From the IMG/VR virus record IMGVR_UViG_3300031673_000132, positions 1-43,293 of that record: a DNA stretch of 43,293 bases; one strand, 5' to 3'. The notes under the pieces were generated by a model. That model was not told where the DNA came from, searched no databases, and saw only the letters and a program-made list of their open reading frames with translations. A program made the position numbers and the translations under genes. This document shows, one piece after another, positions 2,714 through 35,964 of this stretch (positions are counted from its first letter, which is position 1; every line of letters begins with the position of its first letter). This stretch comes from a virus.

Positions 2714-2870
2714 TCTTGTTCTCCTTTTCCGGCACTATCTCGTCTGCCGGAATACAATCGTGTTCAATCATAAATTCCAATTTGCCCTGCCTGAGCCAGT
2801 GGCAGCACCAGCACAAATTGTTTGGCTCGCCAGTCTTGTTCTCGTTCTGGTCGCAGCATTTGCATTTCAC
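2706..2870 (-). CDS. Small cysteine-rich protein (54 aa)
   Basis: The product begins VKCKCCDQNENKTGEPNN and continues CWCCHW, giving six cysteines and a histidine in the first 24 residues, consistent with a small zinc-binding knuckle. Its C-terminus (PEKENKND) resembles that of the next gene (PEKENKNA), and both genes share the junction sequence GGAGAACAAGAATG. GTG 2870 is the only reasonable start because a stop lies shortly upstream in frame. It overlaps its downstream neighbour by eight bases. Function unknown. Confidence 0.6.
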   Translation of the reverse strand: MKCKCCDQNENKTGEPNNLCWCCHWLRQGKLEFMIEHDCIPADEIVPEKENKND

Positions 2871-2871
2871 T

Positions 2872-3069
2872 TTACTTCCGTTTCAATGAACTGGGTTCTA
2901 ATTCCATTCGCATTACACAGTGTTGTAAAATTTTCTCTATACGCTTTAGTGTCTGGGATATATCAAATAACAGATTTGCTTCGACGGTTTGCGATTTGAC
3001 TACTCCACCATCTTGCCCAATACATCTAATCCACTTATTTACATCTCTCTCATATCTCACCTTGTCCAT
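2872..3069 (-). CDS. Hypothetical early protein (65 aa)
   Basis: A small, mostly helical soluble protein (FDISQTLKRIEKILQHCV is a probable amphipathic helix) without recognised motifs. ATG 3069 has GAAGGTGAAG upstream, a good ribosome site. It lies in an uninterrupted minus-strand run, one base from its downstream neighbour. Function unknown. Confidence 0.55.
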   Translation of the reverse strand: MDKVRYERDVNKWIRCIGQDGGVVKSQTVEANLLFDISQTLKRIEKILQHCVMRMELEPSSLKRK

Positions 3070-3088
3070 CTCTTCACCTTCTTTCTAC

Positions 3089-3343
3089 TTAAGTTACAGC
3101 ACTTTCCTGTAGTTGCTTCATTTGCTCCAGATACAAAATCATCATTATGTAGTTCTCGGCGTCAATCCAGTCGCCCTCCATTGCCTTCTGGACGGCCTTC
3201 CTCTTAAACTCACTAAGATTGGCAATATCATTCCAGCCGGCAACGCCTCCGTCCAGCTTCTCCCACATCCGGCCTCTCATTCTTTGTGCGTTGTCCCAAA
3301 CCAATATGCCAATCTCTTCTCTTTGTTTTTCTGTATTTACCAT
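3089..3343 (-). CDS. Hypothetical early protein (84 aa)
   Basis: Soluble helical protein with a strong start (AAGGAG before ATG 3343). Residues 20-45 (MRGRMWEKLDGGVAGWND) are glycine/tryptophan-rich and the rest is charged helix. No family recognised. It sits immediately downstream of the HAD phosphatase gene. Confidence 0.6.
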   Translation of the reverse strand: MVNTEKQREEIGILVWDNAQRMRGRMWEKLDGGVAGWNDIANLSEFKRKAVQKAMEGDWIDAENYIMMILYLEQMKQLQESAVT

Positions 3344-3355
3344 TTTAATATCTCC

Positions 3356-3709
3356 TTAATCTTGTCTTGGTAATTGACGAACAACATCCCTCCAATCTCC
3401 TTTGTAACATATAGCCCTGTCATCTATATAAACATCAGCAATCGGCTTATCCATATTTTCATCAACAATAATCTCATCAAAAGGCAACCCATTTTGAAAC
3501 ATAAATTGCTTTATGGCTTTAATATGATGTTCACGCCCATCTTTGTTCCCCCAATATGTTGCTGTTCTGCACGAATGTATTCTTATAATGTACCCCATCT
3601 GCCTAATTGCCACCAACGCCTCTTTCACTTTTGGTTCGGGTGGGCCAACATCAGGAAATTCAAACCTGCAAAGCGTGCCATCGAAGTCTATAATTGCTGT
3701 TTTTGTCAT
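3356..3709 (-). CDS. HAD-superfamily phosphatase (117 aa)
   Basis: The N-terminal IDFDGTLCRF is HAD motif I, with the nucleophilic Asp and the acid/base Asp two residues later. A threonine/serine in RIHSCRTA is a plausible motif II, and VYIDDRAI near residues 91-98 is the metal-binding acidic motif. At 117 residues it is a compact, cap-less HAD domain, similar in size to phage polynucleotide 3'-phosphatase or small nucleotidase domains. ATG 3709 follows AAGGAGATTTGAA. The substrate is not evident; the adjacent nuclease-like gene makes end repair or nucleotide salvage plausible. Confidence 0.8.
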   Translation of the reverse strand: MTKTAIIDFDGTLCRFEFPDVGPPEPKVKEALVAIRQMGYIIRIHSCRTATYWGNKDGREHHIKAIKQFMFQNGLPFDEIIVDENMDKPIADVYIDDRAICYKGDWRDVVRQLPRQD

Positions 3710-3710
3710 T

Positions 3711-4241
3711 TCAAATCTCCTTATTTTCTTTTTGCGAAATACCCTTGTCTTGATATGCCCCTTTATGTAATTTGGGCATTTTTAACTCTGTCAACCCCGT
3801 ACCATACGGCACTAACAATCCCCAAAACTCTGGCAATTCTTCTGGGCTGCAAATTCCTTTTTCGGCAACTACCCAATGGGCTGTTCCAACGGGCTTCATT
3901 CTTGCTTCTGCGTGTGGTGTTTTCTCGCCACCAAAGGTATTTAGAAAATCGGCACGAGACACTTTGGCCTCAAATACACAGACATACCATCTGTCAATGT
4001 CGCCAAAAACCTTTTGCTCCAATCTTTCATCTGTAAGCCTGCTGCTCATATACTTTTTAGTCAATCCTGAATGTCTCGTGTATCTTGTGTGGTGTTCATC
4101 GTGCATTCCCGCAATGGCCACAAAATCCGCAATGTAACCCACAACATTTGCTTCTGGCAACCCGCACATTTTGAATGAACGATTGCCAATCCATCGCCTA
4201 AGCATATTTTGCAATTCTATGTGCCTATTGCTTGCAACCAT
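3711..4241 (-). CDS. PD-(D/E)XK nuclease-like protein, MmcB-type (176 aa)
   Basis: A core of the PD-(D/E)XK pattern is visible: an acidic residue in YIADFVAI (about 36-43) followed by VCVFEAKVSRADF (about 87-99), where E-x-K closes the metal site. This arrangement and size resemble MmcB-like DNA-repair nuclease relatives. The gene is packed against the HAD phosphatase gene (one base apart). Catalysis is inferred from the motif, and the substrate is unknown. Confidence 0.55.
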   Translation of the reverse strand: MVASNRHIELQNMLRRWIGNRSFKMCGLPEANVVGYIADFVAIAGMHDEHHTRYTRHSGLTKKYMSSRLTDERLEQKVFGDIDRWYVCVFEAKVSRADFLNTFGGEKTPHAEARMKPVGTAHWVVAEKGICSPEELPEFWGLLVPYGTGLTELKMPKLHKGAYQDKGISQKENKEI

Positions 4242-4602: not shown

Positions 4603-5301
4603 TCAAACCACTACATAACCTTTACATTCGACCTCTTTCGGAGTTAATTTACCCGACCAGTAATCGTTGGGATATTGACGAAAAACAGAAATAAATTTTG
4701 ACAGCCAGCAAGGGTCGTTATTGCCGTCTATCAAAGCCTTGTCTTGATAGTCTTCGATAGCCCGCTGCCAGTCGTCGGCTACACGCTGCCAGTATTCGGC
4801 TACACGCTGGCAGTATTCGGCTTCACGCTGCCAGTCGTCGGCTACACGCTGGCAGTTTTCGGCTTCCCGCCGATAGTTTTCGGCTTCCCGCTGGCAGTAT
4901 TCGGCTTCACGCTGCCAGTATTCGGCTTTGTGCCGACAATATGTTTTAGAAAACAATTTCCGTTTGCCTTCTTCCGAAAGCATTTTGGGCAGTCGTGCTT
5001 GCCACTGTATGCCATCGCCATATTTATCGTAGTTATTTTCTATCCAGACAATGATTGATTCTATGTCTGGAAAGTTCACCTGAAAGGCGGTGAACAGCTT
5101 GTCTTTGACCATTAACGGCAATGGTTCACCGGAGTTGGTAACTGGCTCGCCGTTGACGGGGTCGATACCGCAGCGCACCGCCTCCGCAGGCAAGCCTCTT
5201 TTCTTTTTTGAGTCCTCGTGAGAATTGTACTCAAAGTCCAAACCGACTTTGTATTTTCCCTCGTCTTCCCAATAATGACTGTGAATAAAACAATCACACA
5301 T
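4603..5301 (-). CDS. Heptad tandem-repeat protein (232 aa)
   Basis: The N-terminal domain (residues 1-125) starts MCDCFIHSHYWEDEGKYKVG and is unfamiliar. Residues about 127-190 are nine near-identical heptads of the type YWQREAE / YCQRVAD / DWQRAIE, encoded by 21-bp tandem repeats at about 4745-4935, and predict a long helix or coiled coil. A globular C-terminal part with conserved tryptophans follows. ATG 5301 has AAAGGAG upstream. The product of the next gene upstream (5303-5608) has related heptads. Repeat number probably varies between relatives. Function unknown; oligomerisation is the obvious use of the repeat. Confidence 0.7.
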   Translation of the reverse strand: MCDCFIHSHYWEDEGKYKVGLDFEYNSHEDSKKKRGLPAEAVRCGIDPVNGEPVTNSGEPLPLMVKDKLFTAFQVNFPDIESIIVWIENNYDKYGDGIQWQARLPKMLSEEGKRKLFSKTYCRHKAEYWQREAEYCQREAENYRREAENCQRVADDWQREAEYCQRVAEYWQRVADDWQRAIEDYQDKALIDGNNDPCWLSKFISVFRQYPNDYWSGKLTPKEVECKGYVVV

Positions 5302-30757: not shown

Positions 30758-31636
30758 ATGGCATTAACCACCGCCGAAGTAGAGCTGTGTAATCAGTCGC
30801 TCGGCAAAATCGGGGCGAAACAGATTACCGCCGACCCGATACACAACCAAAACGAATACAGCCAGTGCAATCTCCACTACCCGCAGACGAGAAACGCTTT
30901 GCTTCGCAGTTTTGAATGGAACTTCGCCAAAGCCCGTTCTGCATTGATTACTTTGCAAACCCTGACTCTCGACTCGATGCCCTCTATTGATGTCTGGCCT
31001 GCCGGTACGGTCATAACGGGAGCTACGTCTAATACGACCGCTACGATACTGTCTATCACTTCTCCTACAGAATACCAGATAACGTATCTATCGGGCGATT
31101 TTACCGAAGGCGAGATAATTTCCGACAGGGTGGCCGAGCAGGTTTATTGGGAAGGCCAAGTCCTTTATTGGGAAGGGGAATTTGTATTCTGGCTGGGTAC
31201 AGGCAACGAGTTTATTTGCACTTCGGATTATCCCGCCCTTGCGAATGTAACGCCGGATTTCGAGTGGGATTATCAGTTCGTTTTACCAACTGATTATCTA
31301 CGAATGAGGTCTAATTACTCGGAAAACGAAGGCGACGACCCGACTATGCGATGGACGATAGAGGGGGATTATCTTTTAACAAACGACGATGAGGCCGAGA
31401 TAAAGTATATCAAGAAAGTTACAGACCCCTCCAAATTCGATCCGCTATTTACCGAATGTCTGATTTTACAACTCGCTCTGAAACTACTCCACCCGCTTGC
31501 GGGAACAAAAACTTCAGACTTAAAGCGGGATTTACAACTTGAGTTAAAAGATGTGATGTCGAGGGCAAGGACGATATGCAGGGCGGAAACAAATACTACG
31601 GGACGTTCAGATTGGCGATTAGCAAGATATAGTTAG
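30758..31636 (+). CDS. Tail tubular protein A-like / head-tail adaptor (292 aa)
   Basis: N-terminal TTAEVELCNQSLGKIGAKQI followed by CNLHYPQTRNALLRSFEWNF and ARSAL is the signature of T7 gp11-like tail tube adaptor proteins. The C-terminal ECLILQLALKLLHPLAGTKT also fits. Residues about 60-145 are an insert relative to simple homologues, with a T/G-rich strand segment and the module VYWEGQVLYWEGEFVFW (residues 129-145) that recurs in two other tail proteins. It forms the ring between portal and tail nozzle. Confidence 0.8.
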   Translation: MALTTAEVELCNQSLGKIGAKQITADPIHNQNEYSQCNLHYPQTRNALLRSFEWNFAKARSALITLQTLTLDSMPSIDVWPAGTVITGATSNTTATILSITSPTEYQITYLSGDFTEGEIISDRVAEQVYWEGQVLYWEGEFVFWLGTGNEFICTSDYPALANVTPDFEWDYQFVLPTDYLRMRSNYSENEGDDPTMRWTIEGDYLLTNDDEAEIKYIKKVTDPSKFDPLFTECLILQLALKLLHPLAGTKTSDLKRDLQLELKDVMSRARTICRAETNTTGRSDWRLARYS

Positions 31637-32056: not shown

Positions 32057-32590
32057 GTGTATGAAGTCAAATTCGCATATCAACCCGGTTGCAATCTGGT
32101 GTTTTCTGCATTTCAGCCCTGCGGGACGGGACGGGGAATAGAACAGCAGCCCCTGCCTGAAATTCGACCCACAGGATATTACGTTACTACGCCGATTACC
32201 GACTTGGTGGCAGGCGATATGGTTCTTGTCTATGAACTTGAAAGCGTTCTCTGGGAAGATGTCCCCGTCTATATTTCGACTGAAGATTATATTTACTATG
32301 AAGATGATAAAGTTCACTGGGAAGGTGAATGGCTGGTGAGCGTTGACGATTCGTTCAGTGATATTGTAACGTGGTGCGGCGACCCCATCGGTTCGGGTGA
32401 ATATAGTTCGGCGATTGATATTTCAGATGATTTAGTCAGTCTTATTGCCGGTCAGACTATGGTTACTAACGTCTATCCGGTATCTACGACAGGGGAAGGG
32501 ACAAGTGGCGGAGCAGTTGCACGGGCACGGCAATTAGACGAGCAGGACGTTGGTTATTTCAAACGCAAAAGAATAGAGAAGTATGGCTAA
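32057..32590 (+). CDS. Tail-module protein with YWEG insert (177 aa)
   Basis: Start GTG 32057 follows AAAAGGTGTCGAT. N-terminal MYEVKFAYQPGCNLVFSAFQ and C-terminal ARARQLDEQDVGYFKRKRIEKYG frame a central insert at residues 64-94 with three W/Y-E-D/G half-repeats (VLWEDVPVYI, IYYEDDKVHWEGEWLV). The end overlaps the tail tube B start by eight bases. Function unknown; virion protein by context. Confidence 0.55.
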   Translation: MYEVKFAYQPGCNLVFSAFQPCGTGRGIEQQPLPEIRPTGYYVTTPITDLVAGDMVLVYELESVLWEDVPVYISTEDYIYYEDDKVHWEGEWLVSVDDSFSDIVTWCGDPIGSGEYSSAIDISDDLVSLIAGQTMVTNVYPVSTTGEGTSGGAVARARQLDEQDVGYFKRKRIEKYG

Positions 32591-32777
32591 TATCCCGACA
32601 GTAAGTTTTAACGGCGGCGAGGCGTCCCCGCACATAGACGCAAGGGTTGACGTAGAGAAGCACCCGTCTTTATGCCGCCGTCTGGAGAATATGATTCCCC
32701 GTGTCTACGGAAGCGCCGAGCGAAGGCCGGGTACGAAGTTTATATACAAAATAACTGCCCCGGTTGTAGAGGTATAA
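32583..32777 (+). CDS. Tail tubular protein B-like, detached N-terminal part (64 aa)
   Basis: Residues TVSFNGGEASPHIDARVDVE and RLENMIPRVYGSAERRPGTK are the conserved N-terminus of T7 gp12-like tail nozzle/stabilisation proteins. The frame ends after FIYKITAPVVEV at TAA 32775-32777. The rest of the protein lies in another frame starting one base later. In homologues this segment continues directly into the part beginning VTEKVRTIPFIYS, found about 120 residues into the next ORF. Confidence 0.75.
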   Translation: MANIPTVSFNGGEASPHIDARVDVEKHPSLCRRLENMIPRVYGSAERRPGTKFIYKITAPVVEV

Positions 32778-32778
32778 G

Positions 32779-35700
32779 ATGACAGATTACGGGCCAAATC
32801 TTGTAGCTAATAGCGGATTTACATCTAACGCAAGTTGGGTTTGGAGAGAGGATTGGCAATGGAGTGGTAGTTACGCTTATTGTTATTATCATAGCGTTGA
32901 CAATGATTTTTATCAAATAATATCTATTACAAGCGGAGATATTTATAGGGTAAGTTTTAGAGCTCGAAGAGTAGGAGCAACAGGAACAATAACGTGTTAT
33001 CTTGGCGGCGACCTTGTTGACAGTATAGACCTTACAGAGGCTTGGACAACATATACATACGATAATGTAGTTGCAGGAAATACGAATGCCCTCATAATGT
33101 TTGGTGCTTTGGGCGTAGAGGTTAATTTAGACGATGTTTATGTCCAGGAAGAAACAGAACCCCTCCCCCTCACGCCGGAATACTTGGCGCTCGTAACGGA
33201 AAAAGTCCGTACAATACCATTTATCTATTCGTCTGAAATCGCCTATGAAGTCGAACTCGGCAATCAATATATGCGGTTCTTTTACGATGATACCGTTCTT
33301 TTGGATGCTGCTGACGATGAAGTCTGGATAGATTCGCCGTATCTTGAAGAGCATTTATTCCAGTTGCAATACCGTCAGGTCGGCGACGTGATGTGGATTA
33401 CTCACCCGCTCTATGCGCCGAGAAAACTTACCCGAACAAGTGCAACATCATTCGCTCTTACGGCCATTCCTTTTAAGAACGGGCCGTTTATGACCCGCAA
33501 CGACTTAATAGACCCGGACAATCCCTCTAATATCACTATGACTACCAGCGTTACCGGCGAGCCGGTAGGTACGGCGAAATATAGTTTGACCGGACACAAT
33601 ATCGGGGACAGACACGGAGATAATTTTATTAAAAACAATTGGTGGGATGGGATTGCTGCGCACGGAGTAAATGGCTCGCAAGCTGATTATTGCGGAGGTG
33701 GCAGGGCGTCAGATGGCAGACCCGTTTATATTACATATACCGTAACTTATGACACGCCAGTAGAAGAGCTTACCGAAATAAATATAGATTATATTTGTAT
33801 GTCTCGTGACCAGGGTGCTGATTTGACGCTTAATACCTGGACTAAAAGGGGATTGCGTGTTTACGATAGCGTTGAGGAAAAATGGACAGTGGTTGTCAAT
33901 CCGGAAATTATTGATACTGATTTTCCCGCCACTGTATATAAAGCTAAACCGGCGAAACTGATTGGTTTGGATGCCACTGCGGTAATAACCGGCTCCTGGA
34001 CGAATATATCCAGGATAGAAATATATCTTTTGGCCTACGCAAAGGAATATACGACTGCGTGTGCAATTTTTAACGTGAGTGCCGGAACAGAAACATACAT
34101 ACCAGGCACTTTAACTGCTTCGAGTGATTATTTCGAGACCGGACACGAAGGGGCATTATTCAAACTAATTCATAAAAGAACTATTACGGCCATTACTCTT
34201 AACCACGCTGGATATAGCCCCGCCTTATATACCAAGGGAACTTTCAGATTCGGTACGCACGGTCGCTGGGCGGGGACTGTCGAATTACAAAGAAATGATA
34301 ATGATGCAGGCTGGGACACCTACAGAACTTACATAGGCAAAAACGACCGGAACATTCAGGAGGCGTTTGTCGAGGAGGGAGATAATGTCCAGTATCGAAT
34401 TTATGTTCATTCCGGTATGACTGGAGATTTCGGGTCAGACCTTACACTCGATAACGTATTTAGGGAGGGTATTGTCCGAATAGTGTCTGTCGGCGATACG
34501 GTTTACTGGGAAGATGATGTTGTTACCTACGAGGACGAAATTGTAATAATAGTTAGTCGCACAGTCGCCAATATTGCAGTTGTAACTCCCATAGAAATGG
34601 CTGAGGCGACAAAGAGGTGGGCGGAGGGTGCGTGGAGCGATTTAAGGGGCTTCCCGACTTCGGTAACATTTTTCGAGGGCAGGTGTATTTACGGTGGTAT
34701 GCAGACAATCCTGCCGAGCGAAGCGAAACTGCTTACTGTCTGGCCTTCCGAAACGGACGACTATGAAAACTTCGAGGAGGGCGTAAAAGCCGCCGACTCC
34801 TTTGTTATTGTTGTCCCGTCCTCTAACGACATAATGTGGATTGAGGCTCTTGAAGCCTTAGTTGTGGGAACATCCGGCGACGAATGGAGAATCGGCTCAA
34901 ACAGAATGGAACAGCCGATTACACCGACCAATTATACCGTCAGGCAGCAATCATCTTACGGTTCTGCATATATTCAGGCGGTTCGGGTAAACGACCAGAT
35001 TTTGTTCGTTGATTTCGTGGGCCGTAAAGTTCGGGAACTGATTTTTAACGGCGATAAATATGTCAGTCGTGATTTGACGGCTCTTTCCGAACATATCACG
35101 CTTTCAGGCATAGTCGATATGGCCTTACAGAAAAATCCAGATACTATTTTATGGTGCGTTCTCGACGACGGCTCATTCGTGGCCAAGGTTTACGAAAGGG
35201 AGCAGAATGTAGTTGCGTGGTGGAAAGTTCCCATAGACGGTTTTGTCCAGTCCGCCTGCGTAACTCCCGGCGAGACTGAAGATAAAGTCTCTATCGCAAT
35301 TTTGAGAACGATAGTCGGAGATATTGTTTACTGCGAAGGCGATATTGTTACTTACGAAGGGAAAAATGTAACACTGGCCGATTATTGTATCTATATCGAG
35401 AGATTTGCGCCGAGGGTATTCGGAACAGATATTGAGGACGCCTTCTTCGTCGATTGCGGGGCTACTTTTGAGTCCACGACTCCCACAACTACGGTAACGG
35501 GCGCAACGCATCTTGTCGGTGAAACCGTAGCTATTTTGGCCGACGGTGTAGTTCAGGCGTCGAAAGTCGTTGATAAAGACGGCGAGTTTGAACTGGACGC
35601 CGCCGCAAGTAAAGTTCAATACGGACTGCCTTTTGTTCCGGTTCTCGAACCGATGAAACCGGTAGTAAATACCCAGATGGGAACTACAGCCGCAAGTATC

Positions 35701-35964
35701 GCTTCGGCCAAGGAAATGGGAATATCGTTTCTCGATACCGCCGGCGCGACGTATGGCGCTTCGCTTGATAATATGTTCACTATAGACTTTGACGACCCCC
35801 AGTGGGTGAACGCTTCTAAAATCGAAGGTCTTTTTACCGGCACGGTAAACGTAAGCGTTGACGGCGGATTTTCGCTTGAACAGCCCCTTATTATTTCAAG
35901 TGATAGCCCGCTGCCATTAACTGTTCGTGCGATTATACCCAAGATGGATGTTACGGGCAGATGA
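32779..35964 (+). CDS. Tail tubular protein B-like with N-terminal CBM-like domain (1061 aa)
   Basis: Residues 1-125 are a CBM4/9-like carbohydrate-binding domain (NLVANSGFTSNASWVWRED, YRVSFRARRVGATGTITCYL, EVNLDDVYVQ). From about 137 (VTEKVRTIPFIYSSEIAYEV) the sequence is the tail nozzle protein, including FRFGTHGRWAGTVELQRN, GAWSDLRGFPTSVTFFEGRC and the C-terminal GEWR-type blades. YWED modules are inserted at about 575-591 and 850-866. The start ATG is one base after the preceding stop (TAAGATG), suggesting reinitiation. Homologues are usually one continuous chain, so this gene was split by domain insertion. Confidence 0.8.
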   Translation: MTDYGPNLVANSGFTSNASWVWREDWQWSGSYAYCYYHSVDNDFYQIISITSGDIYRVSFRARRVGATGTITCYLGGDLVDSIDLTEAWTTYTYDNVVAGNTNALIMFGALGVEVNLDDVYVQEETEPLPLTPEYLALVTEKVRTIPFIYSSEIAYEVELGNQYMRFFYDDTVLLDAADDEVWIDSPYLEEHLFQLQYRQVGDVMWITHPLYAPRKLTRTSATSFALTAIPFKNGPFMTRNDLIDPDNPSNITMTTSVTGEPVGTAKYSLTGHNIGDRHGDNFIKNNWWDGIAAHGVNGSQADYCGGGRASDGRPVYITYTVTYDTPVEELTEINIDYICMSRDQGADLTLNTWTKRGLRVYDSVEEKWTVVVNPEIIDTDFPATVYKAKPAKLIGLDATAVITGSWTNISRIEIYLLAYAKEYTTACAIFNVSAGTETYIPGTLTASSDYFETGHEGALFKLIHKRTITAITLNHAGYSPALYTKGTFRFGTHGRWAGTVELQRNDNDAGWDTYRTYIGKNDRNIQEAFVEEGDNVQYRIYVHSGMTGDFGSDLTLDNVFREGIVRIVSVGDTVYWEDDVVTYEDEIVIIVSRTVANIAVVTPIEMAEATKRWAEGAWSDLRGFPTSVTFFEGRCIYGGMQTILPSEAKLLTVWPSETDDYENFEEGVKAADSFVIVVPSSNDIMWIEALEALVVGTSGDEWRIGSNRMEQPITPTNYTVRQQSSYGSAYIQAVRVNDQILFVDFVGRKVRELIFNGDKYVSRDLTALSEHITLSGIVDMALQKNPDTILWCVLDDGSFVAKVYEREQNVVAWWKVPIDGFVQSACVTPGETEDKVSIAILRTIVGDIVYCEGDIVTYEGKNVTLADYCIYIERFAPRVFGTDIEDAFFVDCGATFESTTPTTTVTGATHLVGETVAILADGVVQASKVVDKDGEFELDAAASKVQYGLPFVPVLEPMKPVVNTQMGTTAASIASAKEMGISFLDTAGATYGASLDNMFTIDFDDPQWVNASKIEGLFTGTVNVSVDGGFSLEQPLIISSDSPLPLTVRAIIPKMDVTGR

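Follow-up and report, generated by a model that had tools for sequence, protein, structure and literature searches.

A podophage-type tail nozzle encoded in separate pieces, with differing domains at the breaks of its chain

The window analysed here is the complete IMG/VR virus record IMGVR_UViG_3300031673_000132, a stretch of 43,293 bases from a virus of microbes for which no near DNA relative was found among cultured phages. Its tail region contains, in this order, the genes for the portal, a scaffold-like protein, the capsid, tail tubular protein A (30758-31636), two small proteins, the nozzle, an acetyltransferase-like protein and the internal virion proteins. The gene upstream of the nozzle and all parts of the nozzle described below are located on the + strand. 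The gene immediately preceding the nozzle (32057-32590) gave no match in PHROG and Pfam searches, and its 3' end overlaps the start of the first nozzle piece (ATGGCTAA). This piece, ORF1 (32583-32777), codes for a free N-terminal peptide of 64 residues that ends with RRPGTKFIYKITAPVVEV and is terminated by a TAA at 32775-32777. The ATG of ORF2 (32779-35964; 1061 residues) follows one base past this stop codon and in another frame, stop and start together forming the junction TAAGATG (32775-32781). A Shine-Dalgarno-like AGAGG (32768-32772) is situated 6 nt 5' of this ATG, within the end of the N-peptide gene. The two ORFs and their junction are located exactly where a preliminary description of this DNA had placed them. 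ORF2 starts with an extra domain of about 125-140 residues (32779-33195), which is mostly beta by prediction; the nozzle body resumes at EKVRTIPFIYSS and extends from 33199 to 35961.

The assignment to the nozzle is based on profile searches. ORF1 matches PHROG 376 with E=2e-15 and PHROG 20269 with E=4e-9. ORF2 matches PHROG 376 with E=8.5e-136 and the Carin-1 nozzle 8ck1 with E=7.5e-52, both matches belonging to the body. In PHROG 20269, ORF1 corresponds to profile positions 9-57 and residues 141-241 of ORF2 to positions 63-164, which means that the nozzle profile crosses the break with a loss of about 5 positions. With profile position 57 still in ORF1 and position 63 already at ORF2 residue 141, the conserved nozzle is complete, and ORF2 residues 1 to about 140 are extra. 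These data show that the nozzle of the window is truly split: its first 64 residues are encoded by a separate cistron. Within the body, a stretch of about 200 residues (about 33540-34100), modelled with low confidence, is common to the window and its nearest relative L002 and absent from L004.

The structural reference was L043, a natural fused homologue, which was modelled from a 29-sequence alignment with a mean pLDDT of 90.8. In the PDB, this model matches the Carin-1 nozzle 8ck1_A best (TM 0.83), and then the LME-1 and T7-type nozzles. The break of the window (site 1) maps to the loop of residues 56-63, which links strands 50-55 and 64-69 of the model. A second site at which relatives are broken (site 2) is the loop of residues 361-367, which links strands 356-360 and 368-371; the equivalent loop of the window (34699-34737) is unbroken. 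The model of ORF2 itself is of low confidence, and its best match is likewise 8ck1_A (E=8e-34, TMq 0.48). By sequence profile and fold, the window protein is a podophage tail nozzle of the PHROG 376/Carin-1 type, a single chain being usual among nozzles and not family-defining. The podophage nozzle is a hexamer beneath the adaptor in the virion; it belongs to the core of short-tailed phages, whose DNA channel it closes.

The preliminary description had assigned about 125 residues at the break to a CBM4/9-like domain. The additional residues are present (about 140, as judged from PHROG 20269), but the carbohydrate-binding assignment was not confirmed: no CBM family in Pfam matches the full insert up to E=10, and PDB CBM chains are matched weakly (E=0.036-0.084). 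The Pfam matches of a sub-stretch are limited to Laminin_G_3 at E=0.045. Alpha-rhamnosidase was rejected as an identity, the NCBIfam match being short and, at E=0.0034, far below the cut-off. A tblastn search of phages with the insert gave weak matches (E=0.008-0.04) to tail proteins of Shewanella phage 3/49 and Pelagibaca phage P1 and nothing else; these tail proteins have no CBM match in Pfam. No close homologue of the insert was found in the IMG/VR scan. The low-confidence ORF2 model contains seven predicted beta-strands at residues 44-124, with pLDDT values mostly of 50-72 over residues 41-124 and of about 30-40 before residue 41. We use "beta-sandwich adhesin-like domain" as a working label, the sandwich being weakly predicted by the model. 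Going by its resemblance to other domains, the insert probably acts as an adhesin close to the host surface; that it might bind sugars is a guess. Its GC3 of 0.30 compares with 0.47 for the nozzle body (z=-3.6) and is the lowest in the gene. Since this value is below that of every equal-length window of the body, it fits a recent gain of the insert.

The same site-1 break was found in 16 further IMG/VR contigs, that is, in 17 with the window, all of which carry the body. Because the architecture recurs in 16 other contigs, the split is far beyond chance. Note that the members are nearly all metagenomic contigs; among bacterial genomes, the search yielded a sole relative (L091), which has a fused nozzle and stems from a Mesorhizobium MAG contig. 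In L002, stop and restart follow a homologous PVVE tail, with TAAGATATG in place of TAAGATG. The next ORF of L002 carries the nozzle N-terminus once more, together with a domain of about 190 residues, and the body then has its own ORF. The next relatives, L007, L025, L009, L003 and L012, are likewise split. In L003 and L012, the free peptide ends with SKVYDV*, and the body ORF is headed by other domains. In L007, a plain N-peptide overlaps the body directly (ATGGCTAA) with no insert between them, and an N-copy bearing a GLUG domain is located upstream. The free peptides of L014 and L029, two contigs of different metagenomic origin, are identical. Whole genes separate the N-terminal piece from the body in L013, L032, L041, L054, L096, L098 and L113. 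For example, L041 contains an HNH endonuclease gene (PF13392; 4778-5278) between N-peptide and body. A pectate-lyase-like tailspike gene (Pfam PF12708) lies between the N-peptides and the body in L054 (4489-6063), and another one lies inside the nozzle of L094 (6464-7597), at a third break near AWARHPMYE. L036 is apparently split without an insert. L092 has a fused nozzle with a 79-residue insert in the site-1 loop and no split, which overturned the notion that fused nozzles never bear a domain at this site.

Two sequence similarities concern the neighbouring tail genes. A stretch of tail tubular protein A (TLDS..GDFTEGEIISD; window about 30899-31130) closely resembles the site-1 insert of L092 (about 4764-5000), as if a small domain moved between tail genes. 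A short paired motif of the type VYWEGxVxYWEGE occurs in the window at 31133-31200, 32282-32350, 34492-34560 and about 35316-35370, that is, in the three adjoining genes for tail tubular protein A, the 32057 product and the nozzle (twice), as well as in relatives. A motif of this type is repeated in the N-copy extension of L013 and L098 (CYENDVLFYEN).

A nozzle body is always accompanied by an N-terminal segment upstream, either fused or free (145 of 145 loci). Because many of these loci were retrieved with body queries, the co-occurrence is not an effect of the search alone. The free peptide of the window is 63% identical to that of L002. For the pairs window/L002 and L003/L012, synonymous divergence is large and protein divergence small, giving dN/dS values of 0.126 and 0.102, respectively. 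Judged from these sequence comparisons, the free N-peptide is under purifying selection and conserved rather than decaying, and by the same token it is presumably needed. The free peptides end 8-15 residues past a conserved Gly, and the body of fused nozzles restarts 14-15 residues past it. As the ends of the free peptides match this loop position of the fused proteins, the breaks are all within one loop. The 17 aligned N-peptides are too divergent to be used as a search query. For annotation, a peptide of about 60 residues in this position is to be taken as part of a nozzle and not as an orphan small gene.

A tree was calculated from 47 nozzle bodies. Every split falls in one clade of 38 members (support 100/99), and the outgroups are fused. 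At least six changes of state occurred at site 1 and at least six at site 2, which is split in 13 of the 47 rows. Forcing the 16 site-1-split rows into one clade was rejected (p-AU 2.6e-9). This shows that the same two nozzle loops were broken repeatedly within one clade.

The preliminary description had attributed the split to the insertion of the domain. According to this explanation, the insertion broke the gene, and what was left of its N-terminus is simply tolerated; extra sequence is indeed present at the break in most split members. However, the window, L002 and L007 form one group (96/71) in which all members are split and the contents of the break differ: the insert is on the body in the window and on the second N-copy in L002, and in L007 the plain N-peptide and the body adjoin with no insert. 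Because of these differences, and because L036 is apparently split without an insert and L092 has an insert without a split, splitting and insertion are separable. Moreover, the conservation of the N-peptide speaks against mere toleration. The preliminary description itself had named homologues that have this small protein as a separate one as an observation against its account, and such homologues do exist. We therefore consider an insertion that broke the gene improbable; in the lineage of the window, the distribution of the sequences suggests that the split is probably older than the insert.

The split could also be an error of sequencing or assembly, an indel having disrupted a gene that is in reality fused and contains an inserted domain. 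The window contig is metagenomic, and L092 is an example of a fused nozzle that bears an insert in the site-1 loop. Single cases such as the split of L036 could be due to indel errors. For the window, such an error is very unlikely: its sister L002 stops and restarts in the same way behind the homologous tail, the five next relatives are split too, the identical free peptides of L014 and L029 come from different metagenomes, and the ATG of ORF2 is preceded by a strong Shine-Dalgarno sequence.

A third explanation, which the preliminary description had also considered, is that a programmed +1 (or -2) frameshift at GTA-TAA-G joins both ORFs to one nozzle with an internal CBM-like domain. The reading frames of the two ORFs are offset by one base, and a single base separates stop and start. 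To our knowledge, this site carries no slippery motif. All 23 junctions examined, which comprise site 1, site 2 and the duplicated N-copies, restart on ATG. The restart is offset from the stop by -8 to +34 nt, and a shift of 0, 1 or 2 bases would be needed, depending on the junction; neither direction nor site of a shift is thus conserved. In addition, the downstream ORF of L002, L014 and L054 encodes the N-terminus again, and unrelated genes lie between the pieces in several relatives. These findings make frameshifting highly improbable. For the ATG of ORF2, the Shine-Dalgarno duplex energy is -7.1 kcal/mol, compared to a mean of -2.2 over all ATGs of the + strand. Since all restarts use ATG, frames and spacings are mixed and the Shine-Dalgarno sequence of the window is strong, the pieces look like ordinary coupled genes. 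Most likely, both chains would be made by coupled termination and re-initiation, because the body has its own ATG and a good Shine-Dalgarno sequence inside the end of the N-peptide cistron. That the nozzle mRNA contains an intron or homing element and has the pieces as its exons, as the endonuclease gene of L041 might suggest, is scarcely credible given that no Rfam intron matches the window region or eight split loci, that the insert of the window shares the reading frame of the body and has its own Shine-Dalgarno sequence and ATG, and that successive N-terminus copies occur in L002, L014 and L054.

In our opinion, the window probably encodes a split podophage nozzle, that is, a beta-propeller which is built from separate chains and bears interchangeable adhesin-like domains on the free ends of an exposed loop. 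The preliminary description had correctly recognized that the nozzle N-terminus is a peptide of its own, coupled to the ORF that follows; we infer its assembly with the body. The break falls within a single loop that joins two predicted beta-strands of the propeller-type nozzle. The free peptide may then dock non-covalently on the body and complete a beta-sheet. This is suggested by analogy with the propeller of T7 gp12, which is closed by its own first strand like a "velcro" (PMC6702177); accordingly placed, the free peptide of the window would carry the propeller closing strands. The free ends of the opened loop could accept whole domains on one tether. In the window, this would be a newly gained beta-domain that heads the body chain and probably serves as an adhesin close to the host surface. 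Among the relatives, this loop holds GLUG (L007, L012), Laminin-G/ConA-like (Laminin_G_3, L014), Gp80 (L045) or choice-of-anchor (type R, L003) domains; the domains at site 2 include GLUG (L028, L093).

The N-terminal segment is duplicated in six loci, often with extra domains on one of the copies. Two N-copies are present in five members of the clade (L002, L007, L014, L054 and L098). Outside the clade, L060 contains an extra nozzle-like N-terminus fused to an InlB B-repeat (2831-3997), directly upstream of an intact fused nozzle. One short segment is thus found on GLUG in L007, Laminin_G_3 in L014, the InlB B-repeat in L060, Gp80 in L045 and unassigned domains in L002 and L098. Because N-copies are duplicated onto different domains, even beside an intact nozzle, the N-segment is possibly an exchangeable anchor with a putative docking function. 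Somewhat doubtful, and offered tentatively, is the more extensive idea that it is an exchangeable docking strand, that plain and adhesin-tipped versions occur together in mixed nozzles, and that the channel is a modular receptor-binding platform whose decoration can be changed with the core chain unaltered.

No report of a split nozzle was found in the searchable part of the literature, most subscription journals being outside it. Nor did the wider pattern, a nozzle made from separately encoded pieces with domains at the breaks, turn up there; the nozzle family itself is known. If our interpretation is true, the DNA channel of short-tailed phages can be put together from exchangeable parts. 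The interpretation also yields a testable claim on how phages add surface domains to an otherwise rigid machine.

The closest known systems are the podophage nozzles themselves (T7 gp12; Cobetia phage Carin-1, 8CK1; LME-1 orf18, 9EFK; PHROG 376). Profile and predicted fold are alike, and so is the position of the gene, which lies downstream of tail tubular protein A and upstream of the internal virion proteins. In contrast to the solved nozzles matched here, which consist of one chain, the nozzle of the window has a separate N-terminal segment and a foreign domain at the break. A nozzle was shown to bind a receptor in another podophage (PMC7241545). Nozzles of uncultured phages in BFVD (entries GLEYA, VWFA and FCCH) combine, as here, the nozzle fold with extra, probably exposed domains; there the domain is on one chain, whereas in the window it is accompanied by a break. 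The N-terminal anchors of tail spikes and fibres, for example of Klebsiella phage tailspikes (PMC12692247), similarly consist of a short conserved segment that precedes interchangeable surface domains, and the domain-bearing N-copies of L002, L007, L014, L098 and L060 are the parallel. However, the tailspike anchor belongs to a separate fibre protein, whereas the N-segment is integral to the nozzle. Finally, phage DNA polymerase genes that were split by gain or loss of endonucleases (PMC10684548) likewise distribute an ancestral single chain over several ORFs. In contrast to these, the nozzle is a structural protein that was split repeatedly at the same loops, mostly without endonucleases and with domains added.
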